Source: Argopecten irradians
Lineage: Eukaryota; Mollusca; Bivalvia; Pectinida; Pectinidae
Assembly: GCF_041381155.1 (NCBI RefSeq)
Contig: NC_091138.1
Coordinates: 37,937,604-38,001,603 of the forward strand
Length of the DNA stretch: 64,000 nt
Reading direction: 5' to 3'
Shown piece after piece: positions 1 through 36,700 of this stretch (its first letter is position 1; each line of letters starts with the position of its first letter). The notes beneath the pieces were generated by a model. That model saw only the letters and a list, made by a program, of their open reading frames with translations. It was not told the origin of the DNA and made no database searches. The translations under genes were made by a program, and so were the position numbers.

Positions 1-3000
1 ACCTGAAGAACAAGAAGACTTGGTGTCATCCAAAGACTCCATGGAATGAAACAGGAATTAGTAAATTAGATGGTAAGGAGAATCAAGATTTGTATTTGAC
101 TCCATTATTATGGTAAAATATGCAGTTGTACTTAACATATCTAATATATTGAAATATTTTGTCATAAATCATATGGACAATACTTTACACACAAGCACTG
201 TCTACCACAGGACTGTATTGCTATGGGGCCCAAATTGATCATAGGAGAAGCAAATTAAATGAAGCCTGCTAGCACTTCATGTTTAATTTGCTGCTGTCCA
301 GTTGGCATTCATGCTCCCATAATTGCCAACGGAATGCAGTCCAATGATTATATTTACATTTGATAAAAAAATTATGATAAAATCTCATGAGATTTTGCAT
401 CTATAATGAATAAACAATTCATTTGGACATGAATAAACAATTCATTTGGACATCCATTTCCTGTGATCATATTGATAATGACGTCAAAATAAGCAGTTGG
501 CAGTTCATACACTGGTGAACGCCTGCTTTGTCTGGTAAGGTTACATAGTTGGGTTGCAATAAAAGTGTAAATATAGATGTATATGATTTAATATTACAGA
601 AGAGAAGACGAATAATAAAGACAAATCAGATATCACGGTAGAAACAGAAAATGAACAGGTCAAAGGTCAGGAGGAAAATAAAGAAAATGGGGAGGTAGAG
701 GAGGAGGAAGAGGAGGAAGCAGATGAGGAGTCTGTAGAGGTCAGTACAGGGGATGATCCTTTATACGTTGTGGTGATGTTGTATGGTATAGTACCTAACT
801 TTTTATACTATTTTTGGTGTTGTTACAGAGTTCTCTCCCCTTACTTTTTGATGATGGTGTATAAGTACAGAATATATGTATAATCTAGGGTAACAAGGCT
901 TGTCAGCAACATTCACAGCTAGGTCAGGATAATTCATATAGAAGATAAAATGCTAGGGTCGAAGGTAACGATTTATAGAGTTCTCTTCTCTTGGGAGAAT
1001 GCACATCCTTGATATTCCAGGAGTTCCGATCTCTATACCCTAGCTGGACTATAGTAAAATTGAAGGCAGATCAGGGGAACAAATTTGAACCAATCACAGG
1101 CCTGCAAAAAGTTTCTTTGAAGATTACAGAGATAGTGACACACAACTTCAAAGCCACATAGTCAACCACAGTGTACTGTTGGCTCTTTTGATGTACATCA
1201 AAGGACCTGATGTGTTCTGTTGCCTCAAATTTTACTATGAGATAGTCCAGGGGTGTAGAGATTGTAAGTGATCGGAACCCCTAGAGTATCGAGAATGGAG
1301 AATATATTGATGGGTTTTATCATTTAATTGTTTGCATGCAAAAATTACAATGTTTTCTCTGAATAGTTTTAACTTAACAGCTCTTTTAAACAAATGATGC
1401 AATGATCCATATATGTTCTCAAGAGTAAGACTCAATCACTTAAAGAAATAATGCACTAGCATTATCAGGTTATAAGGATAATTTGATTTTATCTTGAGGC
1501 TAACAGCAACACAGTAACTTCTACATGAGGAATTTATTTTATTGATGGAATACTTTAAGTGTTTATAGTGATTAAGTCTTCAAAAATAGTAAAATTTCTA
1601 TCATATCTGGCACATTATTGACAACTTGCAAAGTTGCAGCACAAAATGCAAATGAAAATAGCTAATATAGATGGTTTTATTAATTGAAATTTGAAATTAA
1701 ATTGAATTTTAACAGTGAATATTTATCAACAGTTCTATCATTGATGTAATTTGTATTTTGTACGTTTCTATTGATATTGTTATGTCTTTTACTATCATCC
1801 TCAAGTCCTAATTAAGGGTCTTCATAAGCACCAAAAAATACACTACCTAATTGGTTAATTGATATATTTAGATATCATACAATGAAATAATGAAGTGAGA
1901 AGGGAGATTGTATTTTAATCAGACTTTTTTGATGTAGTAATTAAAATTTGAAGCTTAAAGATGCTCCACCGCTGACAATGGTATTTTTTCACTATCAAAA
2001 ACAGGAGCAGACAACTTAGTATTTTTCTTCAGTTACAAAAGTTACTTGCTTTACACCATTACCATTGTTGAAAAGTTTGAGCTTCTAATTTTACTTCAAG
2101 TTTTGAATATCAAAAATAATTAATTGCATCCTGAAAAAATTTCGTTGCACTATATCCTATATGGTATGATGTACTGATTGCGCATGCACCAAAGGCAAAA
2201 TAAATTATTTTGTATTATATTTTGTGTTAACTAGACATATATATACACGATTAAACACCAATTATTATTCACATTATGAATATCATTTATGCTCTGTCGG
2301 CGGTGGAGCATCTTTAACTTATCGTGTTAAAGCTGTGTTTTTTGAAAACTAATCCTTTTTTTTTATCATTTTTATTTTTAATAACTATTTTTATTAAAAT
2401 TTGGTTTGTGTGTGTTTGTGGTGGTTTGGTGACCCTAATATAATCAGACATTAGATTGCTTGACTGACCAGCTAACTGACCAATTGACCAATGCCAGTGG
2501 AGAAGGGGTATACATTCTAGATTTAAACTAACTTTATTAACTCTGACATACTGCATCACTACCTGGAGAACCGATGGAGAAATTAATGATGCTGCTTGAG
2601 GGAATAAAGACATTATAATATAATAGAGTATGTAGGAGCATAACGGAGAACTTGATACAGAAACCAAATAAAATAAATCAGTTTTACATGAAAGAAGAAT
2701 GGGACAAAGCTTCATACATGTAAATACTTCGTATGTGGGGAGAAATATATGATACTCCTATAAATTCTTAGACTGGAAGACGATTCCACTTTGAAAATAA
2801 GTCTAGAAGAGAACATTGGCTTATGATTTGTAAGCTAGTTGAACATGATATTTTCATCCAAAGGGTTTTGGGAAGAACACATCACATTTTGAAGAGAGTA
2901 ATTACATTTCTGAAAGTAGGAACCAATACAGGGGTTCAAGATCCCAAAACGACAATTGTAAAGTACACTTTACCGTCGTGTAGTCCCACCTTGCGGTGAT

Positions 3001-6000
3001 TATGATCTCACGAAACTCTCGTCAAATTGTACTTTACCCTCTTTGTTTTGGGATATAAAAACCCCCTTATTGTTCAACAAATTTTAGAAGCATGGTCGTG
3101 TATGTCCTAAACTTTAGATCTGAACATATTATTTTAACCAAAACAGAGCGACTTTTGAGCTACTTGATAGATAGATACCCTGGCATTGGTATTTGGAAGG
3201 TATGGATTTTGTGTCAACACTCTGTTTGTGTTAGTTGTTTTTGCACTATGGCAGTTGTTGCCCATACAGGCTCCCACGTTAACGACACTTGGTGATGGGG
3301 GTCACAACCTTAACCTCAAGGTCAGGGCACAGACTATTGACCTTGGGTCACTTCGACCTGAGCGCTCCAAGGTAGGTGTGTCTAATGTTAACTTATTGCA
3401 TGCTTTCTTATTGTGTTTTCTAATCATTGTTTTGACTCTAATGGTATTTATGTAGTTTGTCTGTAAATATTGAGAAAAAGAAAAGAAAAACAAAGTATGT
3501 ATGAATTTTATGAAAGTCTGGGTAAAATTGTCTAGATGTCTATAGACAATGGTCCTAAATGGGCCTGAATTGCCCACCTGCTAATTGAGGTGCATAATAT
3601 AGACACAAAATACTTGGAAGTCCATTTAATTTGAAGGTCAAGGTTATCATTTGAACAAATCTGGTAGTCATTTGTCCAGACATGTTATTGGTACAATATC
3701 AATATCTCTAAGCCTTTTTTGTTTTTAAGTGAATTAAAGAGAAAAGTTGACAGACTGATACCATCAAAAATGATGAATTTGAATAAATTAATAAAAGGTT
3801 TTAATTACTGTTGAAATTAATTATATTTTTCAGCTAAATAATGTTTTTATGCCCAAGCATGAATTGGAGGCACTACAGTGTTACCTATATCTGTCCTGTC
3901 TCATCTCATTCTATTTCATATGGAGACAATAGCAGTTACAAAAATAAATTACTAAAGATTGTGATTGATCAATGAATTAAAAAAAAATTACATTTCAGCT
4001 GATGCCTCAAAAGGGACATTCATTTTTGTTATACTTTGGAGCTAATTTATGTGTTTATACCCATTTACAGACATTCCTTGGCTCCAAGGTAGCCCGACAG
4101 TTACAGAGTATGAAGACATGTCGTATGGACAGAAGGAACAGGCTAGCAGAGGATGTGGATTTTACCATAACACAGAGATATGGTAAACTGTGCTCCCCCT
4201 TCCAGGCCCTCCAAACAAAAGTAAGTCATGGTAATCTGTGCTCCTCCTTCCAGTCCCTCCAACCAAAGGTAAGTCATGGTAAACTGTGCTCCCCCTTCCA
4301 GGCCCTCCAAACAAAAGTAAGTCATGGTAATCTGTGCTCCTCCTTCCAGTCCCTCCAAACAAAGGTAAGTCATGGTAAACTGTGCTCCTCCTTCCAGGCC
4401 CTCCAAACAAAGGTAAGTCATGGTAAACTGTGCTCCCCCTTCCAGTCCCTCCAACCCAAAGGTAAGTCATGGTAAACTGTGCTCCTCCTTCCAGTCCCTC
4501 CAAACAAAGGTAAGTCATGATAAACTGTGCTCCTCCTTCCAGGCCCTCCAAACAAAGGTAAGTCATGGTAAACTGTGCTCCCCCTTCCAGGCCCTCCAAA
4601 CAAAGGTAAGTCATGGTAAACTGTGCTCTCCCTTCCAGTCCCTCCAAACAAAGGTAAGTCATGATAAACTGTGCTCCCCCTTCCAGTCCCTCCAAACAAA
4701 GGTAAGTCATGATAAACTGTGCTCCTCCTTCCAGTCCCTCCAACCAAAGGTAAGTCATAATAAACTGTGCTCCCCCTTCCAGTCCCTCCAAACAAAGGTA
4801 AGTCATAATAAACTGTGCTCCCCCTTCCAGTCCCTCCAACCAAAGGTAAGTCATGGTAAACTGTGCTCCCCCTTCCAGTCCCTCCAAACAAAGGTAAGTC
4901 ATGATAAACTGTGCTCTCCCTTCCAGTCCCTCCAAACAAAGGTAAGTCATGATAAACTGTGCTCTCCCTTCCAGTCCCTCCAAACAAAGGTAAGTCATAA
5001 TAAACTGTGCTCTCCCTTCCAGTCCCTCCAACCAAAGGTAAGGTAAGTCATGGTAAACTGTGCTCTCCCTTCCAGTCCCTCCAAACAAAGGTAAGTCATG
5101 GTAAACTGTGCTCCCCCTTCCAGTCCCTCCAAACAAAGGTAAGTCATGGTAAACTGTGCTCTCCCTTCCAGTCCCTCCAAACAAAGGTAAGTCATGATAA
5201 ACTGTGCTCCCCCTTCCAGTCCCTCCAAACAAAGGTAAGTCATGGTAAACTGTGCTCCTCCTTCCAGTCCCTCCAACCAAAGGTAAGTCATGATAAACTG
5301 TGCTCCTCCTTCCAGTCCCTCCAAACAAAGGTAAGTCATGATAAACTGTGCTCCCCCTTCCAGTCCCTCCAAACAAAGGTAAGTCATGATAAACTGTGCT
5401 CCTCCTTCCAGTCCCTCCAAACAAAGGTAAGTCATGATAAACTGTGCTCCCCCTTCCAGTCCCTCCAAACAAAGGTAAGTCATGATAAACTGTGCTCCCC
5501 CTTCCAGTCCCTCCAAACAAAGGTAAGTCATGATAAACTGTGCTCCCCCTTCCAGTCCCTTCAAACAAAGGTAAGTCATGATAAACTGTGCTCCCCCTTC
5601 CAGTCCCTCCAAACAAAGGTAAGTCATGATAAACTGTGCTCCCCCTTCCAGTCCCTCCAAACAAAGGTAAGTTATGGTAAACTGTGCTCCTACTTCCAGG
5701 CCCTCCAAACAAAGGTAACTCATGATAAACTGTGCTTTCCTTTCAGTCCCTCCAAACAAAGGTAAGTTATGGTAAACTGTGCTCCCCCTTTCAGTCCCTC
5801 CAAACAAAGGTAAGTCATGATAAACTGTGCTCTCCCTTTCAGGCCCTCCAAACAAAGGTAAGTCATGATAAACTGTGCCCCTCCTTCCAGTCCCTCCAAA
5901 CAAAAATAAGTCATGATAAACTGTGCTCCTTCTTCCAGTCCCTCCAAACAAAGATAAGTCATGATAAACTGTGCTCCCCCTTCCAGTCCCTCCAACCAAA

Positions 6001-9000
6001 GGTAAGTCATGGTAAACTGTGCTCCCCCTTCCAGTCCCTCCAAACAAAGGTAAGTCATGTTAAACTGTGCTCTCCCTCCCAGGCTCTCTAAACAAAGGTA
6101 AGTCATGATAAACTGTGCTCCCCCTTCCAGTCCCTCAAAACAAAGGTAAGTTATGGTAAACTGTGCCCCCCTCCCAGGCTCTCTAAACAAAAGTAAGTCA
6201 TGGTAAACTGTCCCCCCTCCCAGGCCCTCCAAACAAAAGTAAGTCATGGTAAACTGTCCCCCCTCCCAGGCCCTCCAAACAAAAGTAAGTCATGGTAAAC
6301 TGTCCCCCCTCCCAGGCCCTCCAAACAAAAGTAAGTTATGGTAAACTGTGCCCCCCCTCCCAGGCTCTCTAAACAAAGGTAAGTCATGATAATCTGTGCT
6401 CCCCCTTTCAGGCCCTCCAAACAAAAGTAAGTCATGGTAAACTGTCCCCCCTCCCAGGCCCTCCAAACAAAAGTAAGTCATGGTAAACTGTGCCCCCCTC
6501 CCAGGCCCTCCAAACAAAAGTAAGTCATGGTAAACTGTGCCCCCCCTTCCAGGCCCTCCAAACAAAGGTAAGTCATGATAAACTGTGCCCCCCCCCTCCA
6601 AACAAAGTAGTCATGAAACTGTCCCCCTCCAGGCCTCAAACAAAGGTCATGGTAAACTGTGCCCCCCTCCCAGGCTCCTAAACAAAGGTAAGTTATGGTA
6701 AACTGTCCCCCCTCCAGGCCTCAAACAAAGGTAAGTTATGGTAAACTGTGCCCCCTCCCAGGCTCTCTAAACAAAGGTAAGTTATGGTAAACTGTGCCCC
6801 CTCCCAGGCTCTCTAAACAAATAATGGTAACTGTGCCCTCCAGCCTCAAACAAGTAAGTATGGTAAACTGTGCCCCCCTCCCAGGCTCTCTAAACAAAGG
6901 TAAGTTATGGTAAACTGTGCCCCCTCCCAGGCTCTCTAAACAAAGGTAAGTTATGGTAAACTGTGCCCCCTCCCAGGCTCTCTAAACAAAGGTAAGTTAT
7001 GGTAAACTGTGCCCCCCTCCCAGGCCCTCCAAACAAAGGTAAGTTATGGTAAACTGTGCCCCCTCCCAGGCTCTCTAAACAAAGGTAATAGGCCATGGGC
7101 TAGGAGGGTCCCACATGCACCCCCCCCCAAACCTCCGAACCAATATTTTTCTGAACCCTTATGACCCACTGATCACAAATCAAAATGTTAACATTGCATA
7201 AGTTGGGATGAACTTCCGGTTATGACGTCATCAAGATGGCCGCCATCTCGAATTTGACTAAAAATTGAAAAAAAATAGTCATAACATTGACATTTTTCAA
7301 CCGAAGTAGACAAATGAGGTATCAAAATGACCACAATAGAACAACAAATACATATCAGGACCAAAAAATCCAATATATGTAGTGATTTCTACGCAGGAAA
7401 TGAAAAAATCTGATTTTAACCTCAAAAATGGAGATTTTTCAGCAATTTTTTTTCATATTTAGCTTGACGCAGCAAAAATGTTTCCCAACAGCAAACTATT
7501 ATTTCTAATAAGTTTTTTGACCACTTATCAATCAGTTTAAGCAACAAAAACAACAAAAACCAATGTTAACATCGTATAAATTCCGGTTATGACGTCATCA
7601 AAATGGCCACCATCTCGAATTTCACTGAAAAATGCAAAATAGTTATAACACTGATATTTTTCAACTGAAGTAGACAAATGAGGTATCAAAATGACCACAA
7701 TAGAACAACAAATACATATCAGGGCCAAATAATCAATATATGTAGTGATTTGTACGCAAGAAATGAAAAAAATAAGATTTTAAGCTCAAAAATGGTGATT
7801 TTTCAGCAAATTTTTCATACTTGGCTTGACGCAGCAAAAATGTTTCCCAACAACAAATTATTACTCGTAATCAGTTATTTAAACTCCTATCAATCAGTAA
7901 AAACAACAACAACAACAACAAAAATATACAGGAATGCAAAAAAAATTATTGTTATACCCTCAATTGTGTAGATTAGCAGCGCCTCAAAAATAATTATTAT
8001 AGCACAACGCCTAATGATAGCGTAACAAATGTAACCTAAGCTAAGCTTGTGTTTCCGTTAATATCATTAACAGTTTCCAAAACGTTTGTGTCTTTGAAAA
8101 TGAGCAGATTCATTGTTTATTTTCTATGCATAGCATAAGCAAAATGTAGGATGGTTACTACAGTGTCACATATGTCTTTCACTGGTTCTCAATGATAACC
8201 ATTATCATTGCGCGTGCTTTCTCGCCTCACTGCACTATCCACTGAAGAGACTCGGCATATCTGGTAGCTGGCACATGCAGTCCGAATCAGAGTAATCGAG
8301 ATATCGGTATCCAATTCGTTGAAAGTCAGAGCGTCGTCTTCGATGTCGATGAGCTGATGTGACACTACATTGCCAGTGTTGTTCTAGCCTGTCTTCTTTT
8401 ATGACCCATCCATGGCAAGAGTTCATATCAGGAACAACAGGTTCAGAGATGTGGGATCTCTTTCAGATTCTAACATATCGTACATATATGCTGTTTCAGA
8501 CTTCTCCGGCATGATGGGAATTACACCAGATCCACATTCATTAGTTCTCCTTAGCGCATAGCTCCATAATTCGTATGAAGTACTATTCATCAATCGTGTG
8601 GACCCTCGTGCAACCATAAATGGCACAGGTGATATCGAGGTCATTAATGAGGCCATAAATGTTAAATGCTTTTCATTGGTCTGACTTTTCCCACTCCCTT
8701 GAAGGTGCTGGTTGTGTCACATCTGGTGTATGCGTAAAGAGAACATTGAAGACTCTCAAGTAAAAAGTTCTCTACAGTGCTTTCCAGACTTGGCAAAGAT
8801 TGAAACTTCACTGCAGACCTCATCTATGACCTCAAAGAATCCACCTGTGCCACCTATGGTTACTGAGGTTCACAAGAATGAGGAATTGTGCTTCATACGA
8901 ATTAAGGAGAACCAACCCAACCCTCCGCAGAATGTGGATCTGGTGTCTTTTCCATAATGCCGGGGAAGTCTGGAACATCATATACGATATGTGAATCTAG

Positions 9001-12000
9001 GTGAAACTAGGTAGGAAAGAGGAAGAGCTCCAACATCCCGGAATCCGATGTTTCTGATGTTATATCATGGACGGTTGACAAGTTAGAACCACGATGGTAA
9101 CCCGATAATGTAATGTCACATCGGGTCATCGAGGTCGAAGACGACACTCTGGGGAGAAAGCACGCACAACGAAAATGATTATCATTAAGAACTAGTGAAA
9201 GAAATATGTGACACTGTAGTAACCATCTTATATTTCCTAACGTTATACACAGGAAGTAAATAATAGATGTGTTCATTCTAAAAGACACAACATGTTTCGA
9301 AAAGTGTCATGGTATTTGCAGAATTTTAATTTGATACCCTATAGCTATTAGTTGGCGTTTTGCTGTAATAATTCAGTTTGAGAGGCTACTAGTCTACAAT
9401 AATTCGAACATGAAAATGAATTATTTTGAAGTCCTACTTAGATATTCAGCCAACTTTAAATTCAAATTTGTTAAGATATAAATCGTCAATAGCCAATGTT
9501 ATATTCAGGAAATTCCGAGACACCAGGAAACTGTAGTGTCAGTGGTTTGGAAAAAAATAACAATCATATGCCGCATCCGGTGATGTTTTGTAAACCAAAT
9601 GATGGTATAACAACAATTCTCTTTTGCATTTCTATATATTTTTGTTGTTGTTGTTGTTGTTTTAACTGATTGATAAGAGGTCAAATAACTGCTTACGAAT
9701 AATAATTTGTTGTTGGGAAACAATATTGCTGCGTCAAGCCAAATATGAAAAAAAATTGCTGAAAAATTACCATTTTTGAGCTTAAAATCGTATTTTTTCA
9801 TTTCCTGCGTTCAAATCACTACATATATTGGATTATTTGGTCCTGACATGTATTTGTTGTTCTATTGTGGTCATTTTGATACCTCATTTGTCTACTTCAG
9901 TCGAAAAATGTCAATGTTCTGACTATTTTTCATTTTTCAGTGAATTTCGATATGGTAGCCATTTTGATGACGTCATAACCGGAATTTTTACGATGTTAAC
10001 ATTGGTTTTTGTTGTTTTCGTTGCTTAAACTGCTTAAACTGATAGATAAGTGGTCAAAAACTTATTAGAAATGATTTTTTTCTGTTGAGAAACATTTTTG
10101 CTGCGTCAAGCCAAATATGAAAAATTTGCTAAAAAATCTTCATTTTTGAGCTTAAATTCAGATTTTTTCATTTCCTGCGTAGAAATCACTATATATATTG
10201 GTTTTTTTGGTCCTGATATGTATTTGTTGTTCTATTGTGGTCATTTTGATACCTCATTTGTCTACTTCGGTTGAAAAATGTCAATGTTATGACTATTTTT
10301 CAATTTTTAGTCAAATTCGAGATGGCGGCCATCTTGATGACGTCATAACCGGAAGTTCATCCCAACTTATGCAATGTTAACATTTTGATTTGTGATCAGT
10401 GGGTCATAAGGGTTCAGAAAAATATTGGTTCGGAGGTTTTGGGGGGGGGGGGTGCATGTGGGACCCTCCTAGCCCATGGCCTATAAGTTATGGTAAACTG
10501 TGCCCCCTCCCAGGCTCTCTAAACAAAGGTAAGTCATGGTAAACTGTGCCCCTCCCAGGTCTCTAAACAGGTGTCATGGTAATCTGTGCCCCCTCCCAGG
10601 CTCTCTAAACAAAGGTAAGTTATGGTAAACTGTGCCCCCTCCCAGGCTCTCTAAACAAAGTAAGTCATGGTAATCTGTGCCCCCTCCCAGGCTCTCTAAA
10701 CAAAAAGGTAAGTCATGGTAAACTGTGCCCCCCTCCCAGGCTCTCTAAACAAAGGTAAGTCATGGTAACTGTGCCCCCTCCAGGCTCTCTAAACAAAGGT
10801 AAGTATGGTAACTGTGCCCCTCCCAGGCTCTAAACAAAGGTAAGTTATGGTAATCTGTGCCCCCTCCCAGGCTCTCTAAACAAAGTAAGTCATGGTAACT
10901 GTGCCCCCTCCACTAAACAAAGGTAAGTTATGGTAAACTGTGCCCCCCTCCCAGGCTCTCTAAACAAAGGTAAGTCATGGTAATCTGTGCCCCCCTCCCA
11001 GGCTCTCTAAACAAAGGTAAGTCATGGTAAACTGTGCCCCCTCCCAGGCTCTCTAAACAAAGGTAAGTCATGGTAAACTGTGCCCCCCTCCCAGGCTCTC
11101 TAAACAAAGGTAAGTTATGGTAAACTGTGCCCCCCTCCCAGGCTCTCTAAACAAAGGTAAGTCATGGTAATCTGTGCCCCCCTCCCAGGCTCTCTAAACA
11201 AAGGTATAAGCTCTCAAACAAAGTAAGTCATGGTAAATGGTAAACTGTGCCCCCCTCCCAGGCTCTCTAAACAAAGGTAAGTCATGGTAATCTGTGCCCC
11301 CCTCCCAGGCTCTCTAAACAAAGGTAAGTCATGATAAACTGTGCCCCCCTCCCAGGCTCTCTAAACAAAGGTAAGTCATGATAAACTGTGCCCCTTCCCT
11401 GGTTCTCTAAACAAAGGTAAGTCATGGTAATCTGTGCCCCCCTCCCAGGCTCTCTAAACAAAGGTAATTTATGGTAAACTGTGCCCCCCTCCCAGGCTCT
11501 CTAAACAAAGGTAAGTCATGGTAATCTGTGCCCCCCTCCCAGGCTCTCTAAACAAAGGTAAGTTATGGTAAACTGTGCCCCCCTCCCAGGCTCTCTAAAC
11601 AAAGGTAAGTCATGGTAACTGTGCCCCCCTCCCAGGCTCTCTAAACAAAGGTAAGTCATGATAACTGTGCCCCCTCCCTCCTAAACAAAGTAAGTTATGG
11701 TAACTGTGCCCCCTCCCAGGCTCTCTAAACAAAGGTAAGTCATGGTAAACTGTGCCCCCTCCCAGGCTCTCTAAACAAAGGTAAGTCATGGTATAATCTG
11801 TGCCCCCCTCCCAGGCTCTCTAAACAAAGGTAAGACTTGACAAATCTTTCAAGATTTTCCTGATAAAGCTTAAAGTAAATTTCCATTTAAGTGATGACAT
11901 GACATAATGCTCTCCCTCTTCCAGACCCCCAAGTTCACAGCAAGGAATGACAATTTGAATTTTCCTCCCCTTTTCCCTGAGAGACTGTTGCCTGTTTGAC

Positions 12001-12593
12001 TTTTTGTTCACAGTGAATATTGCAGACCTTATATAAAAGTCCATATTAGCATTTTACTGTTATGATGTTTATCCTCTCTATCTGATGCAAACAAGTAGCT
12101 ATATTTGATTTGTTAAAGCTGGTATATATAATGTAACAGGGCCAGAGTAATGTGCCGCCAGCTGGGCTTGAACCCACGACCTCTGACTTACTGGTCCACC
12201 ACTCAACCACTTGAGCTAAAGGGAAATTCACTCTAGCATGAATAGACTGTATAATTTTATCAATATATTAAGTGTTCATTAGTTCATATGTATTGAACAT
12301 ATTATTATCTGTATAAATGTTTTTGATGTCTGTAGGATGTCGTGGATGTAAAGCTACCCAGTATGCCTCTAAGTCAGAGGATGATCAACAAGGGATATAC
12401 ATCGGACAACATGACGGAGGAAATGCTTCGTAACATGGACTTTTCCTATGGGAACCCGGACTCGCCTCCCAGTGGTGACCAGGAGAAAAAGACGACCAGT
12501 GTTCCCAAATCAGACAAGATGTCTACACCAGCCAGTCGGAGAGGGCAGTCAAGGCAAATCTCAGCCATCAAAAAACACAATACTGTGGCATAG
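1..12593 (+). CDS. Unrecognised gene, 3' part (five exons, 5' end outside window)
   Basis: I do not recognise this protein. Exons chosen by open frame and splice sites are 1-72, 600-739, 3255-3371, 4071-4220 and 12336-12593; the stop codon is TAG at 12591. Phases agree (exon 1 ends in phase 1, the others in phase 0), giving about 244 visible residues. Visible parts are a Lys-rich start, a very acidic run in exon 2 (GEVEEEEEEEADEESVE), a basic exon 4 (KTCRMDRRNRLAEDVDF) and a Ser/Pro/Lys-rich polar tail. No membrane segment or known catalytic motif is seen, so it is probably soluble and partly disordered. Exon 4 ends with the codons for ALQTK, exactly the core of the adjacent minisatellite, and is followed by GTAAGT. 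The last intron, about 8.1 kb, holds that array and a foldback element. Exon 2 uses a GTCAGT donor. The exon 3 acceptor could instead lie at 3269. Confidence 0.6.
73..599 (+). other. Intron 1 of the unrecognised gene
   Basis: The donor is GGTAAGGA at 73 and the acceptor ATATTACAG ends at 599. The stretch is AT-rich. A short direct duplication around a 'gaataaacaattcatttgga' phrase lies near 405-450. Nothing else is recognised. Confidence 0.5.
740..2940 (+). other. Intron 2, first part; no recognised content
   Basis: AT-rich intronic sequence after the GTCAGT donor at 740. Several short open frames occur on both strands, but none has splice context, composition or family resemblance to suggest a real exon. 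Confidence 0.45.
2941..3054. mobile_element. Possible small MITE-like inverted-repeat element
   Basis: The segment opens with ATCCCAAAAC and closes with its reverse complement GTTTTGGGAT. A second matching block, GTAAAGTACA on the left and TGTACTTTAC on the right, lies just inside, separated by diverged bases. The total of 114 bp is typical of a miniature inverted-repeat element. I could not find a convincing target-site duplication, so this may be only a chance or decayed hairpin. Confidence 0.3.
3372..4070 (+). other. Intron 3 of the unrecognised gene
   Basis: Bounded by the donor GTAGGT at 3372 and the acceptor CCATTTACAG ending at 4070. AT-rich, with no repeat or coding signal recognised. 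Confidence 0.5.
4179..7088 (+). repeat. Splice-site-bearing 48-bp minisatellite, left block (about 60 units)
   Basis: Each unit begins with a donor consensus (AAAG|GTAAGT), continues through CATGGTAAACTGTG, then a pyrimidine tract ending CTTCCAG (acceptor consensus), then a 15-nt core TCCCTCCAAACAAAG that runs into the next donor. In most of 4179-6080 the unit is 48 bp, a multiple of three, so it is open in several frames on both strands. Read in the phase of exon 4, the core encodes SLQTK, ALQTK or SLQPK. From about 6070 the unit shifts to a variant with CCCCTCCCAG and GGCTCTCTAAACAAAG, and lengths vary (46-48). Units at 6590-6870 are ragged, with many one-base losses. The array starts inside exon 4, whose own last 15 bases are the first core. 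Confidence 0.93.
7089..10483. mobile_element. 3.4-kb foldback transposable element, target duplication TAA
   Basis: The element opens TAGGCCATGGGCTAGGAGGG and closes with the reverse complement. Near-identical inverted arms run inward for about 1 kb, and inverted similarity continues, more diverged, to a centre near 8735-8790. Flanks are TAA at 7086-7088 and 10484-10486. Because the host array supplies the uninserted sequence (AAAGGTAAGTTATGG), the 3-bp duplication is well supported. Each arm carries two direct subrepeats of about 375 bp (from about 7180 and 7555), each with TTATGACGTCATCAA and a GATGGCC motif. TWA duplications are a known hallmark of PIF/Harbinger elements, but no transposase is seen, so it is non-autonomous and superfamily assignment is inference. 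Confidence 0.88.
8235..9290. other. Central part of the foldback element: diverged inverted duplicate with gene-like frames
   Basis: The centre is more GC-rich than the arms and has short open frames on the minus strand (8656 to 8423 and 8426 to 8235). A diverged partner of the first of these lies inverted at about 8810-8957. The two copies share phrases such as ATGACCTC, CCACCTGTGCC and CAGAATGTGGATCTGGTGTC on opposite strands. I recognise no domain. It could be a captured host-gene fragment that was duplicated and inverted, or the remains of an element-encoded gene; frames are short and broken. Confidence 0.4.
10484..11834 (+). repeat. Splice-site-bearing minisatellite, right block (about 28 units)
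   Basis: Continuation of the array after the foldback insertion. Units here are almost all of the second type: GTAAGT(C/T)ATGGTAA, a C-rich tract ending CTCCCAG, then GGCTCTCTAAACAAAG. Most are 46-48 bp, with several damaged units (for example near 10545-10570, 10790-10920 and 11205-11235). In exon-4 phase the core now reads GCT CTC TAA, that is Ala-Leu-stop, because the CAA of the left block has become TAA. The last unit ends with a donor (AAAGGTAAGACTT) at about 11829. Confidence 0.92.
11835..12335 (+). other. End of the last intron, with acceptor
   Basis: Unique AT-rich intron sequence, interrupted by a tRNA-derived SINE (annotated separately). It ends in TTTTTGATGTCTGTAG, the acceptor of the final exon. 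Confidence 0.5.
12120..12235 (-). mobile_element. tRNA-derived SINE fragment
   Basis: On the minus strand there is a good RNA polymerase III A box (TAGCTCAAGTGGTTGA, positions 12218-12203), and 27 bases beyond it a perfect B-box-like GGGTTCAAGCCC (12175-12164). The tRNA-like part resembles the head of a SINE and no clean cloverleaf is evident, so it is not called as a tRNA gene. It lies antisense within the last intron of the unrecognised gene. Confidence 0.65.
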
Positions 12594-15171: not shown

Positions 15172-16830
15172 TAGCCCACCATCATCAGATGGTGGGCTAT
15201 TCAAATCGCCTTTTCCGTGGTCCGTCCGTCCGTCCGTCCGTCCGTCCGTCCTTCCGTCCTTCCGTCCGTTAACAATTCTTGTTACCGCTATTTCTCAGAA
15301 AGTACTGAAGGAATCTTTCTCAAATTTTACATGTAGGTTCCCCTAGGGGTCTAGTTTTGCATATTGCATTTTGGGACCAATCGATCAACAAAATGGCCGC
15401 CAGGCAGCCATCTTGGATTTTGATAGTTAAAGTTTGTTACCGCTATTTCTCAGAAAGTACAGAAGGGATCTCTCTCAAATTTTACATGTAGGTTTCCCTA
15501 GGGATCTAGTTGTGCATATTGCATTTTGGGACCAATCGGTCAACAAGATGGCCGACAGGACGCCATCTTGGATTTTGACAATTGAAGTTTGTTACCACTA
15601 TTTCTCAAAAAGTACTGAAGGGATCTGTCTCAAATTTCATGTGCATGGTCCCTTAGGTCCCTGTTTATGCATATTGCATTTTGGTACCGATCGGTTAACA
15701 AGATGGCCGACAGGAAGCCATCTTGGATTTTGACAATGAAGTTTGTTACAGCTATTTCTCAGAAAGTACTGAAGGGATTTCTCTCAAATTTTACATGTAG
15801 GTTCCCCTAGGAGTCTTGTTGTGCATATTGCATTTTGGGACCAATCAGTCAACAAGATGGCCGACAGGACGCCATCTTGGATTTTGACAATTGAAGTTTG
15901 TTACCACTATTTCTCAGAAAGTACTGAAGGGATCTGTCTCAAATTTCAAGTGCATGGTCCCCTAGGTCCCTGGTTATGTATGTTGCATTTTGGTACCGAT
16001 CGGTTAACAAGATGGCCAACAGGAAGCCATCTTGGATTTTGACAATGAAGTTTGTTACAGCTATTTCTCAGAAAGTACTGAAGGGATCTGTCTCAAATTG
16101 CATGTACAGGTTCCCCTTGGCGTACAGTTGTGCATATCACATTTTCGGACTGATCGATGAACAAGATGGCTGACAGGCCGCCATCTTGGATTTTGATAGT
16201 TGAAGCTTATTACCACTATTTCTCAGAAAGTACTGAAGGGATCGCTCTCAAATTTTACATGTAGGTTCCCCTAGGAGTCTTGTTGTGCATATTGCATTTT
16301 GGGACCGATCAGTGAACAAGATGGCCGACAGGACTCCATGTTGGATTTTGACAATTGAAGTTTGTTACTGCTATTTCTCATAAAGTACTGAAGGGATCGG
16401 TCTCAAATTGCATTTGCAGGTTCCCCTAGAGGTCTAGTTGTGCATATTGTATTTTGGGACCGATTGATGAACAAGATGGCTGATAGGCCGCCATCTTGGA
16501 TTTTGATAGTTGAAACTTGTTACCACTTTTGCTCAGAAAGTACTGAAGTGATCTGTCTCAAATTTTATATGTAAGTTCCCCTAGGACCTTATTTGTGCCT
16601 ATTGCATTTTCAGCTGATCAGTCAAAAAGATGGCCGACAGGTAGCAATCTTGGAATTTGATAATAAAGTTTGTTTCTCAGAAAGTACTTGAAGGATCCTC
16701 CTCAAATTTCATATGTAGTAATATGTACAGCTGTACGAAAAGTTTGAATAGCAGAGAAAAGATCCCTCTTTTGTTTGTCAGACATAGATCATTCTTTGGT
16801 GGGCGCCAAGATCCCTCTGGGATCTCTTGT
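15172..16830. mobile_element. Pearl/HINE-like non-autonomous element with tandem core
   Basis: The left edge is a 12-bp hairpin (TAGCCCACCATC, loop ATCA, GATGGTGGGCTA; 15172-15199). A (TCCG)n microsatellite follows at 15219-15269. About nine units of 153-156 bp then run from 15280 to about 16690, each with CTATTTCTCAGAAAGTACTG, TTGCATTTTGGGACC and AAGATGGCCGACAGG...GCCATCTTGG. The right edge reads GGGATCTCTTGT near 16830. Microsatellite plus ~160-bp tandem core matches what is known of bivalve 'pearl' elements, later placed with Helentron-derived HINEs; the terminal hairpin fits that. No coding capacity is seen. Confidence 0.72.
15219..15269. repeat. (TCCG)n microsatellite
   Basis: About eight clean TCCG repeats followed by interrupted TTCCG copies, inside the pearl-like element. 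Confidence 0.9.
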
Positions 16831-19979: not shown

Positions 19980-20715
19980 CTATGGACACTAGGATGTTAG
20001 ATGTCTCATGACAATTGGACACTAGTGTGTCTCATGACAAATGGATGCTTGTGTGTCTCATGACAATTGAACACTAGTGTGTCTCATGACAATTGGATGC
20101 TTGTGTGTCTCATGACAATTGGACACTAGTGTGTCTCATGACAAATGGATGCTTGTGTGTCTCATGACAATTGAACACTAGTGTGTCTCATTACAATTGG
20201 ATGCTTGTGTGTCTCATGACAATTGAACACTAGTGTGTCTTATGACAATTGGATGCTTGTGTGTCTCATGAAAAATTAAACACTAGTGTGTCTCATAACA
20301 ATTGGACATTAGTGTGTCACATGACAATTGAACACTAATGTGTCTCATGACAATTAGACACTAGTGTGGACACTAGTGTATCTCATGACAATTAGACACT
20401 AGTGTATCCCATGACAATTAGACACTAGTGTATCCCATGACAATTGGACATTAGTTATCCCATGACAATTGGACACTAGTTATCTCATGACAATTGGACA
20501 CTAGTGTATCTCATGACAATTGGACACTAGTGTATCTCATGACAATTGGACACAAGTATAAAAACTGGACACAGTGTGTATCATGATAACTAGACTCTAA
20601 TTCCAGGGTGTCACATTACCACTGGACACTAGTGTGACTCACGAAAGCTGGACATGTCAAGTGCGTCTCACAAAAACTGCACACTAGTGTGCCACATGAC
20701 AAATGGACACTAAAG
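19980..20715. repeat. 26-bp minisatellite with a 52-bp dimeric pattern
   Basis: About 27 units of GTGTCTCATGACAATTGGAC plus ACTAGT. In the left half, units ending GGACACTAGT alternate with units ending GGATGCTTGT, giving a 52-bp higher-order period; the right half is mostly one type and increasingly diverged. It lies 3' of the stop codon of the QRICH2-like gene. Confidence 0.92.
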
Positions 20716-21390: not shown

Positions 21391-24300
21391 TTAGTTGTTG
21401 TTGCCTGTGGTGGGCACCTCTATATGTTGTTCACCCTCAACGTGACGCGGGGATTCCTCCGGGACAGGCGTGGTGTGGGATGACTCCGGTGGAGCTGGTG
21501 ACCCTTGTTTGGACGGTCCTCCACGTGCAGACACTGGTCTATTTGATACACGTCCTGATGTGGGACGTGGAGACTGGAGATGTCTAGCGGATGTTGGGCG
21601 GGCGACACGGGTTGGAGATACTGTCTGTGTTACAGTACGCTGACCACCAGTCTGGTTAATTGGGGGCGGAGTCTGATGCATCTGGGGATGTAGTGTGTAT
21701 GGGTCCTGTAACAGAAAGAGAACTTTAGTTACAAGAAATAAATTATATGGGTGTGAATCTTTAGTTAAAAAATTTTGGGCTTGAAATCCATAATATCATT
21801 TCACATTGAATAATTTTCAGGATTTATCTCCATTGATTTGTAAGAGATCACTTGCCATGTAACATATCTTGGTTCTTGTTAAAAATATATGTGCTTCAAA
21901 GATAAAAAAGATAGTGAATAGTTCTGTATGAGAGGTTGTCTGGATTATCTCCCTTTATCTGTTAGCCATAACTTGCTCAGGACATTTTTACTTTCTCAGA
22001 CATATTTTTGGTCAATCTGTATGAGATATTTTTCTGGATTATCTCCCTTGACTTGTACTTTGACACTTACTGGACGCCCCTGCTGTTGTGTGAATTTGGC
22101 CTCCAGCTTCTCCATGCGTCCCTTGTAGATGTGACCATCTGCTCCCTGGACATTTACCTCCTCCCTACAACACAGACACAGTAAAACCACTACATCTCAA
22201 ACAGAGATAAAAAGATGAAATAGCCCATAATGGTAAAGGTTTGATATTACCATTGATTACATCAGTATAACCACTACATCTCAGAGATAAAAAGATGAAA
22301 TAGCCGATAATGATAAAGGTTTAATATTACCATTGATTACATTAGCTATAATCATCTTCTTAACAGTATATGTATATCTTTTCAAAAATTGATTCCTATG
22401 TTGAACAGGTTAAAGCATTGAGGACAGGTGCACAAAAATTACATACTTGTACAATGGGTAGACAGCCTCTTCTTCCTCTCGGAACAAATGGCTGAAATAT
22501 AAAAAAAGAATGTCAAATAAATAGTAATTACATCATATTTTATCAAATATAAATTATCAATAATGGAATCCAACCATCCATATCAAAGGCAATGGTGTTG
22601 CTATTCAGATGATCACACTTTTCCAAATTCACTGCTAAAAATTAAAACACATGGCTTGTGTAAACCATTAAATATCAAGACAAGGCCATTGAGAAATCTT
22701 AAATAAGTTTGTTCAATGGTTGGGAGTAACCAGAGTAAATGCTTGACTTGTCAGTGTGCAGAACATAGACCAGTCAACACTTACAAGAGGGCTGATATAC
22801 CTCTGTCCACCAAATTCACAAATGTTTGATCATTTTTCATACATACTTAATTAAAGATTTTGCGAAACTTTTCAATAATGCCACCCGCCATTATCCAGGA
22901 AATGTGCATCAATGTGGTAACACAACATAAAATGACATAACACTATTTCATACAGTATTATCGAACATGAAAGTGTTTCCCTCAATCTCAAGTTACATTG
23001 ATTAATCTATTCTCTAACAACCACGATATCGTTCTGGGAAGCATGTGATAATTATGTGTCTGTGATACATTAGATTTGAGGAGGGTTTGAGGAGGAAGAG
23101 GATCTGGACTTCTCTCTTCCTGAGGAGAGGAACAAGTTTGACTTACCTGAGATGGGAGAGACGGGTAATACGTTTGTGTGGGAAGGTTGTTGTATGGTTG
23201 CCTCCACAAGCCCTCTGGGTGGCGTAGTAGTCTGCTATCTCTGGGTTAGCGAAGCTGTAAATGTACAGTTAACAATTACAACCGTAATCAACACTAAAGA
23301 CAACAGATATCACAAACTTGTTAGTCAAAGTTAATAGATCTAAATTATAGCAGAACATACAGTTTCATTTCAGGAAGATTATATAAAGATATCAAGTTAA
23401 TTCAACAATTACTGTTATTAATAGGATAAGAAAACATCAGATCAGTTATAACCCAATATCCACAGGATTTTAGATTTTTGTTAATGAAGCATTAAAATGA
23501 TATTCCTCCTGGCCATGTGCTTTAGATGAACCAGTTTTCACGATGACAACAGTTATCAGAATACCCATACCACTGGTTACATACATACAATAGTAAAGTG
23601 CTGAAAATACAACTTGTGTCAGGTATACCATGCACATGCATTGGTGTAACGAGATATATCATGAACAGGTGTGACAGGTGAATGTGCGACACATGCAATA
23701 GACAGGAATATATGGTACAGGTGAGGATTAGATGAGATCAACTTTATTGATGACAAACTGATGCATGATTTAAAGACAATGAAAGATAGATTTTATTTTC
23801 TATTTTGTGTGTATTTTGGGAGGCAATGTCTCACTAATACATGGGAAGAAGAATGTAATAACTGACATATCAGTTCATGTTATCCCATGTGAGTGGCCTT
23901 GACCTTTATACAATGACCTAACTGCATGGTCTCTATCTGATCTGACTTGTTTCTGAATGTTAGCTGCATGTGACCCTGTCATTGTGACCTGATTGGTTTT
24001 GACCTTGTCATTGTGACCTGATTGTATTGACCTTGTCATTGTGACCTGATTGTATTGACCTTGTCATTGTGACCTAATTGTTTTGACCTTGTCATTGTGA
24101 CCTGATTTGTTTTGACCTTGTCATTATGACTATTGTGACCTCATTTGTTTTGATGACCTTGTCATTGTGACCTAATTGTTTTGACCTTGTGACCTGATTG
24201 TGACCTGTTGATTGGTTTTGACCTTGTTATTATGACCTGATTGGTTTTGACCTTGTCATTGTGACCTGATTGGTTTTGACCTTGTCATTGTGACCTGATT

Positions 24301-24760
24301 GGTTTTGACCTTGTCATTGTGACCTGAATGGTTACTATAGTTACTATTATATGAACCTGTGTGACCTTGACACAGTGACCAAATTTGTACTGTGACATTA
24401 TCTTTATAGGTGACCTACTGTTTAAATGAGAATTAACATACCAGGTACATAAATGTATAGTGCTGGTGTTTATATTGAACACACAGTGATTATAAATAGC
24501 ATTAAACAATTGAAGCAAGTGACTTTGCTTGACCTTGACCTTTGACATATCATTATTGTATTTGTGTTGTATATAATATGTTGCCACTCTGCTGAAGTTT
24601 AACTCCCATGCAAACTTACGCCTCACGCTGTTTCTTGAAAGTATCAATATCTTGGCCAAAATGAACGAAAAAGGCTCGCAAGTCTGATTTACGAATTCTC
24701 ACAAGCTCCTTTTCAGCAAGAGCTCTTTCAAAGTTGATGTTGTTTTTACCAAGAGGACCG
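21391..24760 (-). CDS. C-terminal exons of the QRICH2-like gene
   Basis: Five exons (24760-24620, 23254-23147, 22491-22447, 22164-22071, 21705-21391) encode the most conserved end of the protein. In order they give GPLGKNNINFERALAEKE and a basic/aromatic stretch, FANPEIADYYATQRACGGNH, TRLSHLFREEEEAVYPLYKE, GADGHIYKGRMEKLEAKF, and a tail rich in Ser, Pro, Thr and Arg ending PTTGNNN. Donors are GTAAGT or GTATGT. The His/Cys-containing CGGNHT segment is a family signature. These exons give the strongest support for the family call. Confidence 0.88.
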
Positions 24761-27700
24761 CTTCAAAGGTGGTGAAAGAAAGAAATGAAAAGAAAGAAGA
24801 GGTGAAAGGATAAAGAAAGTGAGTCAACAGAGTATATTGGTTACGCTGCGTGACAATTCAGCACCCTTGGAATAATCAACTTAACTAAGGTCATAAATGT
24901 CCTGTACAAGTTACTGCATATCTGATTCTTCAACAGATACAGTGAATTCCAACCATCACCAACTTATCTAAGAGAAAGAAATCCACTGTATCGACTGAAA
25001 ATATTATTTTCTTATATCAATAACCTCAAATATCTTCGTCACAGCGAAGAACATTTTTCTTGGATAAAAGGTTTTTTTTCCAGTTGAAATGATTTTACCA
25101 TGGATAGTCAGATATGCAATGCTAGTTTCTGATAGCTGAGTTGCTCTTTGATTAAGTTATTAAGTAGGGTATTACAGATTGATACTGCTTGTACCTGTGT
25201 GTGGCTTCTGTAGCTAAGTAATAAACTCGACCTACAGGACTGTGTACATACAGAGCAACTCAGCTGTCAGCGACACTAATAACTCATGCAAATATCAAAC
25301 CAAATCATGAAAGGCTGCTATTGATTTTGTGACCTGTACTAAATCATAGCTGGAAACATTGACACCAAGGGTCAACGAAAGAAAGCATACATTTCTAGAC
25401 AGGGAGTTCTAATAAACTTAAAAGTAAACGAACAATTTTATCATAAAAAATGAACATGTGGATATGCATAGCACAAAATAAACTGGTGGAGGTATCTTTT
25501 AAAGTAAGAAATAGACAGATGGATGTACATTTTAAAGTACAAAATAGATAGGTGGATGTACATTTTATTGTAAGAAATGGACAGTTGGTTGGACATTTAT
25601 GATACAAAATGGTCAGGTGGACATACATTTTTAAGATAGAAATGAACCAGTGGATAAACATTTTTATGATACAAAATAGAAAAGTAAACATACATTTTAT
25701 GGTATGAAAAAGACAGGTGGACATACATTTCATATGCAAAACAGACAGGTAGATGTACATTTCATGGTATGAAACAGACAAGTAGTCAGACATTTAAATA
25801 TGAAATAGACTGGTAGTCATGCATTTATTAACTTTGTACAAAATGGACAAGTGGGGTAGATGTACATTTGTACATACAGAATAGAAAGAAAATTATAGAA
25901 ATGTATGCAATAGACATGAGGACCTGTATTTCATTTTATAGAATGATCAAATAGAAACGGCAACATTAATTTTATTTATGAATATTATTCAAACATAACT
26001 CTTTTAAAAAGTGACACAGAGAATAAAAAAGTGACACCTTTAATTGATAAATAGAATATTTGAATTTCAAAGTTGGCCAGACATTCACCAAACAAAGAGT
26101 GCCATTAGTGAATGGAATTAGTTTCAGTTTTTGTTTGCTGTGTACATAGCTAGGAGTTGTACAAGGTAGACGGCCAACAGTCCTTACAATGATCTCCACC
26201 AGTGTAAGTGATTTCTCCACCAAACCAGGCTAATGATTTAGGACGCTTAGAAAGCCAATCTAGACTCTGCTAACAAGTTGTCGCCATGTCAATATTGACA
26301 ACAAATATGATTTACACTCATATCAAAGGACCTGAGGAATGTTCCGACCAAACATTATGGCTCTGTAGCAATATTTAGGGAACAATTCATCATAACACAT
26401 CGCGATATTGACCCAGGGTCGAGTAAATGTCTCGAAATTGTCCTCAGAAAGTAAGGGTCGACAGCTGTATGTAGGAGATGATTGAAGAGTTGTTAGGAGA
26501 GGTAGGGATGTTTGTTGATAAAAGGGATATGTACCGGGTATTTGTGTTAAGGGGTGATTTAAAGAGACTAAGAGATCCGATATGATAGTATAGAGTGATA
26601 TACAAAGAAACAGAAAGTGGCTTTTAGTGGCCAGGGACACTATCACATGATTCAATAGGGAAAGTGATGGCAAAGTTTGCATGAACTTTTTAGCGAAGGG
26701 ATTAGGTAATGTAATACATATATACCCAAATAGGTGCTTGTAGCACTGCATTTTGCAAAAACTGAACATTACTGAGCTCTAGTGTGGCACGACAGCGAGG
26801 TCCCGCTGTGGGACATCACAATCAAAGAAGGTGTCTGTGGGGTGTTACACTCCAAAAACGGGCTGTGCGGCATGGAACACCAAACAGGGGGTTATGGGAG
26901 GGGATCATAGGTTAGACATTCAAGGGAGCTGACTTTGGGTTGTCACACTCCAAAAAAGGGCTGTGCAACATGGTACTCCAACAAGGGGGTTTATGAGAGG
27001 GGTGATGTACTCCAACAAGGGGGTTTATGAGAGGGGTGATGTACTCCAGGGTGTGGGGTAATACACAGAGTAAAAGTATGTTAGTTGTTATAGAGATATA
27101 GAGTAGTTAGTATGATATACATGGGGAGTACAGGAGTTCATTCCAAGCTAGAACGTCTAGTACAATTACCGAGCACTGGGCTTGTCTATGCCGGCATACA
27201 TTCTGTTTATAAATAACAATAGTGTAAATATAGCCAGACATCGACGTATAGGTGGACAACAACGTACAGCGAGGAAAGAAAGCAACACAATAAACAATAA
27301 ACAACATCGTTAAATTAAAAGAAATCAAAATTCTAACACAGCAAAATATTACAAAGCGCTATTACAATAGATATATAATATATTAACATTTCAGTTGACC
27401 GATGAAATTAATATGAATTCCTAATTTTTATATTCTGAGCATTGGATCATTAACAAGTCAACGTAATCTATTACAAAACAAACACTATCTATAAGAGAGT
27501 CATTTCTATTTATAATTCATACTACATACATCATTTTTCTGACGTGACCTGAAGAGTTCCTCATACAAAGTAAAGACGTTCTCTCACAAAACGACATTAA
27601 GGTTTATGTTTATACAGATTAGCAGGAACAAGATGTCGATACACAGATCAGTATATATACTTAAAGGTAGGGAGAGAAGCTGCTTTGGTTACTATGGGAG

Positions 27701-33700: not shown

Positions 33701-36700
33701 TATACATAGAACATGTTTTATATATACAGGTGACTGTGTATATACATGCAATCTATCTAACAGTGAAAACATTTATAAAGGAAAATGTAACCAAGAGAAA
33801 ATGACCAAAGGCCCGTGAAATGATCATAAGAAGGTGAAATGAGCATCGAAACAAAAGATAAAAGGGAGTGGTTTATTCATTGGGGAGGTGAAATAATACC
33901 TAGTTAAAAACCAAAGATAAAAGGAAGTGATTTTGTCTGTTGGAGAAAAGTTGAAAGAAAAAAAGAAATGGGAGTGTACAATGTGAGGGTAATCTTGACT
34001 TTTGAAACAAAAGAGTGTATGGGGAATGGTGGTACAACTACTGAAAAAACAGGAGACAAACATGCTGTCTGAATCTGATACCTGGTCGACTTCAGACTTG
34101 GGACTCTTAGCCCCAGGACAGTTTTTATCTCCCTGGGTAAGTTGAGAGTCGTCCCAATGTACCCGGACAGATTCAAGAGAGTCTCTCGACCTCTGGGTAA
34201 GCTGAGAGTCAACTCTCTGTCTTTGTGAAGTGCGAGGAGAGTCTGCAAGTCCTTGGGAGCTAGAAGTCCCATTTTTAAGGACATTAGCCCCTATAGGGGA
34301 GGTTATGTCAGAATAAGGTGGAGTAGCCCCTCCCCTAACAGACGACCCTCCCGTCGCCGAGTCACCAGACATGGAATCCCTTGTATTCATTACATTACCA
34401 TCAGGGGAAATGTTGTGCTCTAGACTTTCCATCTTCAAACCCAAGGAGGCAATGTAAAATAGTTATAACACTGTTAGTAAAAGTTCAAAACCAAAAAATG
34501 AAATTTTAACTCATGCTGAAATTGAAAACAGAAACATTATGAAATGAGGAAGAGAGAAAGAAGAAATGAAAACTGACCAAATCATTCATTCCTGCAACCT
34601 TTGACCTCAGCAGAGCAAACTCAATTCCACGTGCCATTCTCTTGAGGTCATGATCTAGGGTGAAGATTTTATCCCGGACGTCCTGTAGTTGGTCGTTAAG
34701 TACGACGGCCAGTGTGCGAATCTTGCTGTTCGCTTTGGCCAGCTCCTCTGATGATATGTCTATCTCTTTCTTCATCTCCTCTGCCTGACTCTCAGCATCA
34801 GCTGAAGCCTTGGTGAAAATGTCCATAATCTCTTGTTCAAACTTCATATTCACCACATTCTCAGCACTTGATGCTTTTTTATTTTTCGGTGGAATTTCTT
34901 TCTCTTTTTTTACTTCGGGTTTGACTTCAGGTTTAGCTTCGGGCTTGGGTTGTGGTTTTTCTGAGGAAGTAGATTTTTGTGGAGTGGGAGGTTTTGGAGG
35001 GATATCATTTTCACTGGACGTTATTTCTAGGTCTGCGAACGGATCCTGTCTCTGTTCCATACCAGTCAGCCAGGACCTTAGTTCAGACACATCACTTTGA
35101 TAGGCACTGTCATCCATCATCATGTCCTGGAAGACCTTGAGGCGATCCTCCATCACCGTGACTTTGTTGGACAGAGCATCAATAGCGATCGCCATCAGCT
35201 CCTGTTTGTTGAGCTCCTCCAGCATCTCAGTGCTGTCGGACTCGGTTGTTTCCCCTCCACTACTACTCTCCTCTGATTCAGATATCGGACCAGCCCTACC
35301 AGAACTTTGCTTACCTTTCTTGTATTTGGACTTAAGAAGAGCAAGACTATCAGAGTCAGAGCTACCGAACTAGATAGATAGGAGAAAGAGAGGAGAGAAA
35401 GAAGGCAAGTGCAGATTAGTGTGCAGTAGTAGTATACATTAAACATGATATTTATAATGAGGTCCTGTCCCGGTAACTAAGGAGTTAGAACAAGATCAAG
35501 ACAATAGAATCATTATCACCAATCTAAGATAGCTGTTATTCAAGTTAAAGGTAATATAACAATTAATACGAGCAAAGTTTTAAGGATTGGGAAAAAAATG
35601 GCAATTTCTATATGAATTTCACCAGAATCTATAAATACATGCCTTAAAGAGTTTTAAGACCCCATTTGTTGCGAGACATATCAAAAGAAGAAAATTCAAA
35701 AGCGTTTGTATACTAAATGAATGCAGCTAACTCTAGCTAGTTATCTAAATAAAAGGAAGCTTATAGATTTGTACTGTTTCCCCAATATATTTGAATTTTT
35801 TTGTCTTAGAACCTGAAACTGTTTCCTTGGGTTATTATCTTGCTTCCAAAGAACATTTATAATAACATGAATGTCACTCCCTCTTGGTAAGTTGTTTGTA
35901 TGTTTGAATCAATAACTTGTATGACAACCTTTAGTTTACCTGGACAGGACACGGTTACATAACATACATGATACACATGATACAATCCCTGTAGGTGCAT
36001 GAAGGTGCATTCACTCAAGACTTATAAATAAAATATCAATTAACACTACAGTTAATATAGCATGCAGGCTTTCAATAAATAGTACTGTTGATTAAATATT
36101 CATCGGTGCATAACATTCATTACACTTCTATCAAAAACTAATGAAGAGGTACAAATGATTATAATGAGAAAGATTAACATGTAGATGATGTTTGACAGGA
36201 CATTATTAGATGGTGCAATGAAAAATGCTATTTTTTTTACCAAACAATCTCATTTTGTTATTCACATCTAGCTAAATACACATGATTAATTATACAATTG
36301 TTATTCAATCTGAAGCAATAAGCAATACATGGATATGAGTATACTGTTATATTGGGTCTTTATGTTATATTGGGTCTTTGTTATATTGGGTATTTATATT
36401 TTGTTATATGGTATATATAGGGTATCAATGTTAGAAGATCTAAGCTACACACATGTTTGAAAGCCTACCTTATCTCTGGCCTGTTGTAAAGCTTCCAAAT
36501 CTGCCTTCAGCTTATTTAGCTGTTCCAATAAGTCTGAGGAAAGATCTACAACAAAATTACACCAGTAATGATGTCACTTATAATTAATCTGAAGAAAGAT
36601 CTACAACAAAAAGACACCAGCTATGATGTCATTTATAATTAATTATCATTAAAATGATCAAGCTGCTCCTTTAATTAAATCAGTAATAATGTCACTTCAA

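Follow-up and report, generated by a model that had tools for sequence, protein, structure and literature searches.

The question and the locus

How is a gene spliced when the boundary between one of its exons and the following intron has been copied in tandem about 90 times? The question is raised by a minisatellite in a stretch of 64,000 nucleotides (nt) of the Argopecten irradians genome (NCBI RefSeq assembly GCF_041381155.1, contig NC_091138.1, positions 37,937,604 to 38,001,603, forward strand; the whole stretch is henceforth called the window), where an array of units of about 48 base pairs (bp), most of them with a splice donor motif, starts inside exon 4 of a WD-repeat gene. Tandem repeats across exon–intron boundaries were reportedly named “mirages” in lancelet Adh3 (PMC3087553, PMC3902484), and the array described here is very probably a mirage minisatellite of the donor type that is spliced out as an intron. 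The features on which this reading rests are the following (positions within the window).

600..739, + strand: exon 2, predicted from frame and donor/acceptor positions
3270..3371, + strand: exon 3, predicted from frame and donor/acceptor positions
4071..4220, + strand: exon 4 of the WD-repeat (WDR64-like) gene, ending ...TQRYGKLCSPFQALQTK in phase 0; supported by collinear tblastn with the homolog P0001 and by the homolog alignment
4179..4226, + strand: unit 1, made up of 42 nt at the end of exon 4 and the initial 6 nt of the intron, with donor AAA|GTAAGT at 4221
4227..7088, + strand: proximal array, units 2–62; 37 of units 1–41 are 48 bp long, later units mostly 46–48 bp
7089..10483, no strand assigned: inverted-repeat (foldback-like) insertion of 3,395 bp with perfect inverted ends of 41 bp and TAA on either side
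10484..11834, + strand: distal array of about 30 units, mostly 46–47 bp and mostly with core GCTCTCTAAACAAAG (in-frame TAA)
11835..12335, + strand: rest of the intron 3' of the array, 501 bp
12336..12593, + strand: exon 5, the last exon, DVVDVKLPSMPLSQRMINKGYTS...KKHNTVA-stop, aligning with both homologs

Origin of the repeated unit

The gene was delimited with a homologous protein of 416 residues (P0001), which is collinear by tblastn with exons of the window and of the 3 kb preceding it (30 kb searched), including the exons on either side of the array; a second homolog (P0002) was retrieved with the tail of P0001. When the predicted tail is aligned with P0001 and P0002, the peptide YGKLCSPFQAL is invariant apart from one extra G in P0001, and four residues after it the same three sequences read V[VM]D[VI]K[LI]P, which is encoded by exon 5. 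In the window, YGKLCSPFQAL is encoded by the exon part of unit 1, and therefore each unit joins approximately 42 nt from the 3' end of exon 4 to the 6 nt with which the intron begins, as read from the alignment. Both homologs continue past the peptide without additional units, and by sequence comparison only an exon 4 end at 4220 would yield their length.

An original prediction, made from the letters of the window alone, had held the ancestral unit to be probably an exon–intron junction, which the homologous proteins establish. It had further read an acceptor and an exon-like core of 15 nt in every unit, for which an evolved acceptor and exon are not supported. Aligned with the homologs, the apparent polypyrimidine tract and CAG acceptor read as the coding sequence of C-S-P-F-Q and the 15-nt core as the next five codons; an origin from an acceptor and a microexon was rejected, as the CAG is a codon of the conserved peptide. 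That the core (15 nt), the rest (33 nt) and their sum (48 nt) are all multiples of three follows from the CAG being a codon, the donor standing in phase 0, and the unit being 48 bp long.

A WD40 domain was found in P0001 above the cut-off. In a PDB search with P0001, WD repeat domain 64 (9fqr_No) ranked fifth by E-value (7.6e-13) and ninth with a three-sequence profile; the four matches above it in the former search are repetitive WRAP-T chains. The gene is called WDR64-like because 9fqr_No covers residues 33–198 in one stretch, whereas at least three of the WRAP-T chains match repeat by repeat; the name is a label derived from sequence similarity and does not amount to proven orthology. The tail alone had no match in PDB or Pfam.

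Structure of the array

Tandem Repeats Finder and wraparound alignment placed the array of 46–48-bp units at 4179–7088 and 10484–11834, and wraparound alignment resolved 92 segments of at least 30 bp, confirming the roughly 90 units first proposed. Its growth out of the 3' end of exon 4 had also been seen correctly, as the array starts inside this exon; the span of 4179..11834 given for it stands once the insertion at 7089–10483, which is not array, is taken out. GTAAGT is present in 78 of the 92 units, CAG in 86, and both in 75, so that a donor and a CAG in most units could be upheld and a shared core could not, TCCCTCCAAACAAAG being exact in 23/92 units. The word AAAGGTAAGT, present at 66 places in the array, is absent from the remainder of the + strand of the window and is thus not due to chance. 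Altogether the array holds 83 GTAAG donors, the first at 4221 in unit 1 and 82 further downstream. A length of 48 bp was found in 42/92 units (37 of these 42 among units 1–41), and the core contains an in-frame TAA in 34/92 units, as it does in most of the distal ones.

Among 82 near-full units, 56 distinct types were counted, and units differ more the further apart they lie (mean of 3.1 differences at lag 1 and 7.5 at lag 40), i.e., the array evolves in concert with local homogenisation, as mirage minisatellites do. At least 65 matches of the unit were listed in the assembly, all of them on contig C5 inside exon 4 and the array and none dispersed. A search against Rfam gave no known RNA family at the gathering score.

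The 3,395-bp insertion sits in a donor of the array and splits the array in two; its longest stop-to-stop frame is 101 codons. When its flanks are joined, they restore the normal junction between units (one 22-mer from this junction is present 14 times in the window), and the element thus entered an array that already existed. The flanking TAA fits PIF/Harbinger-like elements, to which the insertion may be related.

Reading frame and predicted splicing

Unit 6 is 49 bp long, and for this reason the frame running on from exon 4 stops at 4473. The idea that any donor–acceptor pair would keep the frame is consequently not supported: open in-frame joins to exon 5 exist for 5 of the 83 GTAAG donors (4220, 4268, 4316, 4364, and 4412), all in units 1–5. 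Nor would retention stay open, given the stop at 4473 and the TAA cores. In the exon-derived part of 40 gapless 48-bp units, 5 distinct variants are synonymous and 14 non-synonymous, where 23% synonymous would be expected without selection. The stop, the TAA cores, and the unconstrained variants are as expected of an array that is mostly intronic and free of constraint. As a separate candidate, a coding repeat was rejected on the stop and the unconstrained coding changes.

The array is most likely intronic, with a predicted splice from 4220 to 12336. The exon still ends in unit 1, whose phase-0 donor precedes all the other units, and the acceptor of exon 5 is in phase 0 as well. The following course of events is proposed: a segment of about 48 bp across the 3' end of exon 4 and its 5' splice site would have multiplied in tandem to about 90 copies, with unit turnover by ordinary minisatellite slippage or unequal exchange, and a mobile-element-like insertion would have entered later. 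The most upstream donor (4220|4221) would be joined to 12336 and the remainder removed as one 8.1-kb intron, so that growth of the array would be largely neutral for the protein; a neutral expansion, one of the options in the original prediction, is still allowed.

Donor strength was taken as the energy of the duplex with the 5' end of U1. Values were −5.6 kcal/mol for units 1 and 3, −10.6 kcal/mol for units 2, 4, 5, and 6, and −8.5, −7.7, and −11.1 kcal/mol for the donors of exons 1–3. Three points weigh against removal of the array from the first donor. The authentic donor AAA|GTAAGT (−5.6 against an array average of −9.8 kcal/mol) is the weakest of the four donors of the gene that were examined and weaker than most array copies, and might therefore be bypassed; oriented scanning has been described in mammals and not in this animal; and no RNA evidence was found, nor did protein searches within limited length ranges return a protein or transcript of this species itself.

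A comparable arrangement is known from intron 7 of human F7, where use is reportedly confined to the most upstream of the 5' splice sites in a set of 37-bp repeats, and the cryptic 5' splice sites downstream are described as usable (PMC6627357). There, too, highly similar repeats follow one another and the first holds the authentic donor, with donor copies further downstream; the scallop array differs in its 48-bp unit, its approximately 90 copies, and a first donor that most copies exceed in strength. Under the upstream rule described for F7, 4220 would by analogy still be used; were strength to decide, isoforms with extra 16-residue copies would result. Because the first donor is weaker than most copies, the most-upstream and strongest rules name different sites, which makes the locus a natural test of donor choice.

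Donor arrays elsewhere in the genome

Donor words spaced 28–59 bp apart were counted genome-wide, the counts being raw and not normalised to single-copy donor frequency. Counts were 4,777 + 3,963 for AGGTAAGT (reversed word 394 + 492), 2,434 + 2,450 for AGGTGAGT (598 + 538), and 1,954 + 1,429 for CAGGTAAGT (43 + 58). The control word TAGAGTGA, of the same composition as AGGTAAGT, gave 844 + 1,483 and its reverse 1,330 + 2,087, where the matches of TAGAGTGA include the donor array at a UreF exon (see below) itself. As control words vary widely (886 to 3,417 matches) and a few long arrays weigh heavily, the excess of the 8-mers ranges from 1.4-fold to 10-fold by control and is large, at 33-fold, only for the 9-mer, which was compared with a single reversed word. 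In 113,763 bases, a sample that is too small and contains arrays, AGGTAAGT was counted 7 times and TGAATGGA 3 times, and CAGGTAAGT and its reverse once each.

Among the matches listed, 20 places were considered, all on contig C1 and 18 of them with 5' flanks; an apparent inverted copy was omitted, as was a place of low complexity. By eye, 11 of the 18 have a plausible exon open in frame to the first donor; in a twelfth candidate exon (L015), a stop precedes the donor by four codons, and no convincing exon was seen at the other six (L012, L048, L056, L057, L058, and L059). The 11 plausible exons and L015 were searched against Pfam. Matches above the curated cut-off, each running to the last residue given, were obtained for L061 (Fzo_mitofusin, 4.7e-9), L060 (Guanylate_cyc, 2.7e-7), and L051 (UreF, 5.3e-5; 24.0 bits with a cut-off of 23.3), i.e., at least three further donor arrays of this genome start at the ends of mitofusin, guanylate cyclase, and UreF exons. 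Below the cut-off were L047 (Laminin_G, 0.0035) and L055 (Oscp1, 0.025, confined to the first 17 residues), and L050 had a chance-level match only (0.25). L049 had nothing in Pfam, and all eight PDB matches listed for it (E 0.1 to 0.88) are SLC2A glucose transporters. No Pfam match was found for L046, L052, L053, L054, and L015, and no PDB match for L046, L051, L052, L053, and L055.

The exon end is repeated in the units over 26/26 nt at L047, 27/32 at L051, 43/44 at L055, and 40/45 in the window array, and at L060 and L061 its first 32 nt are fully repeated. Shorter matches, which may be due to chance, were seen at L048 and L052 (7/9), L049 (8/8), L054 (10/12), and L046 and L053 (13/17), and none at L056. 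Of 18 donor arrays, that of the window included (L059 omitted for want of a clear period), 7 have a unit length divisible by three, where 6 would be expected, so that frame neutrality is not a general requirement of donor arrays.

Beside these arrays, L012 (G000:C1:1099220-1100135) is an array of 48-bp units that contain CTAAT and TATTAG|GTAAGT, resembling a branch point, an acceptor, and a donor per unit; no adjoining exon was seen.

Alternative readings

A rather doubtful extension takes 5' splice sites to be recurrent minisatellite seeds in this genome, whether donors are prone to such mutation or selection favours spare ones; the donor arrays would lengthen introns and now and then create them, and at the present locus the weak first donor would let donors 2–5 make a ladder of zero to four extra 16-residue copies.

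The ladder taken by itself is unlikely. The donors of units 2–5 would be used in part, adding one to four copies of VSHG[NK]LCS[PS]FQ[AS]LQ[TP]K to the tail, and use of unit 6 onward would give a frameshifted and probably degraded mRNA. The five open, in-frame joins to exon 5 would permit this, pairing with U1 is stronger for the donors of units 2, 4, and 5 than for units 1 and 3, and stochastic use of AGGT sites in tandem repeats is reported for human UBC (PMC10809524). The extra copies are, however, present in neither homolog, coding changes in the array are unconstrained, and the multiples of three among the donor arrays of the genome stay near expectation. Like the dual-specific splice-site arrays of the UBC type, most units carry AG|GT (within AAAGGTAAGT) and most proximal units are a multiple of three in length. 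They differ from UBC in forming no coding repeat and in a frame that breaks after unit 5, and AGGT is here a candidate donor only; coding, frame-neutral units throughout, as in UBC, are not what was found, given the stop at 4473, 34/92 TAA cores, and 42/92 units of 48 bp.

It is very improbable that internal acceptors and donors delimit 15-nt SLQTK exons that splicing adds or drops, as first proposed. A pyrimidine-rich run does precede the array CAGs (mean of 0.74 Y, n = 88), a level reached by 4% of 833 other CAGs of the window, but its coding ancestry explains the run, and 34/92 cores contain an in-frame stop. A YTNAY branch-point match 15–50 nt upstream was found for 3/88 array CAGs against 55% of other CAGs, which is a weak test as one of four real acceptors has such a match.

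Equally hard to credit is a splice-site sponge, in which the array would either titrate U1 or, by recruiting it, protect or delay the transcript. The 83 GTAAG donors within one intron would lend themselves to such a role, but the donor columns show no significant constraint beyond the array average: in the 40 gapless 48-bp units, extra conservation was not significant for the donor (Mann–Whitney, p 0.26) or for donor plus CAG (p 0.10), with a mean of 1.5 non-majority units per donor column, 0.3 per CAG column, and 8.2 per other column (median of the other columns 2).

Next to no weight is given to an assembly artefact in array length or frame breaks. In its favour, most of the unit length differences fall within a run of C, a context prone to long-read errors, but the 56 distinct unit types, the one insertion with TAA on both sides, and the single locus among the assembly matches listed speak for a real array, of which the exact frame is uncertain.

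Relation to known boundary repeats

Repeats that grow from an exon end and its donor have been described before, though they have received little study. In the lancelet reports (PMC3087553, PMC3902484), mirages are also described in the troponin C, PGBD5, and globin (BflGb6/BflGb9) genes, regular splicing is reportedly undisturbed and array length unstable, Adh3 units measure 10–72 bp, evolution within the cluster is concerted, and a model of intron gain from mirages is proposed. As there, the units of the donor-type array in the window span an authentic exon–intron boundary, the exon part of which is conserved in two homologs. It differs in belonging to another genome (846 Mb), in involving the donor side only, and in its approximately 90 units as compared with 6 and 3 in two BflGb6 haplotypes. 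The array fits the mirage definition. In searches of open-access papers, repeats called mirages were found only in single lancelet genes.

In potato, a duplication across an intron–exon boundary is reported to have made a new intron (PMC4974935); a boundary-crossing duplication supplies splice signals in both cases, whereas here an existing intron was lengthened and no new one is shown. Human repeat expansions at exon–intron boundaries may form introns, according to a further report (PMC2812944). One proposal holds that new introns arise by way of minisatellites at exon boundaries, and a genome with such arrays in several unrelated genes would make this idea testable at scale. The locus merits follow-up for the size of the array, for the weakness of its first donor, and because such arrays recur in the genome.

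Other features of the window

Further minisatellites lie at 15279–16674, 20002–20557, 23971–24333, and 25468–25780, none of which has a GTAAG donor per unit on either strand. The segment at 12130–12230 is tRNA-like by eye and may be a remnant of a short interspersed element; it had no Rfam match at the gathering score. On the − strand, 33824–35369 holds two open frames of 212 and 287 residues, which are probably exons of another gene.

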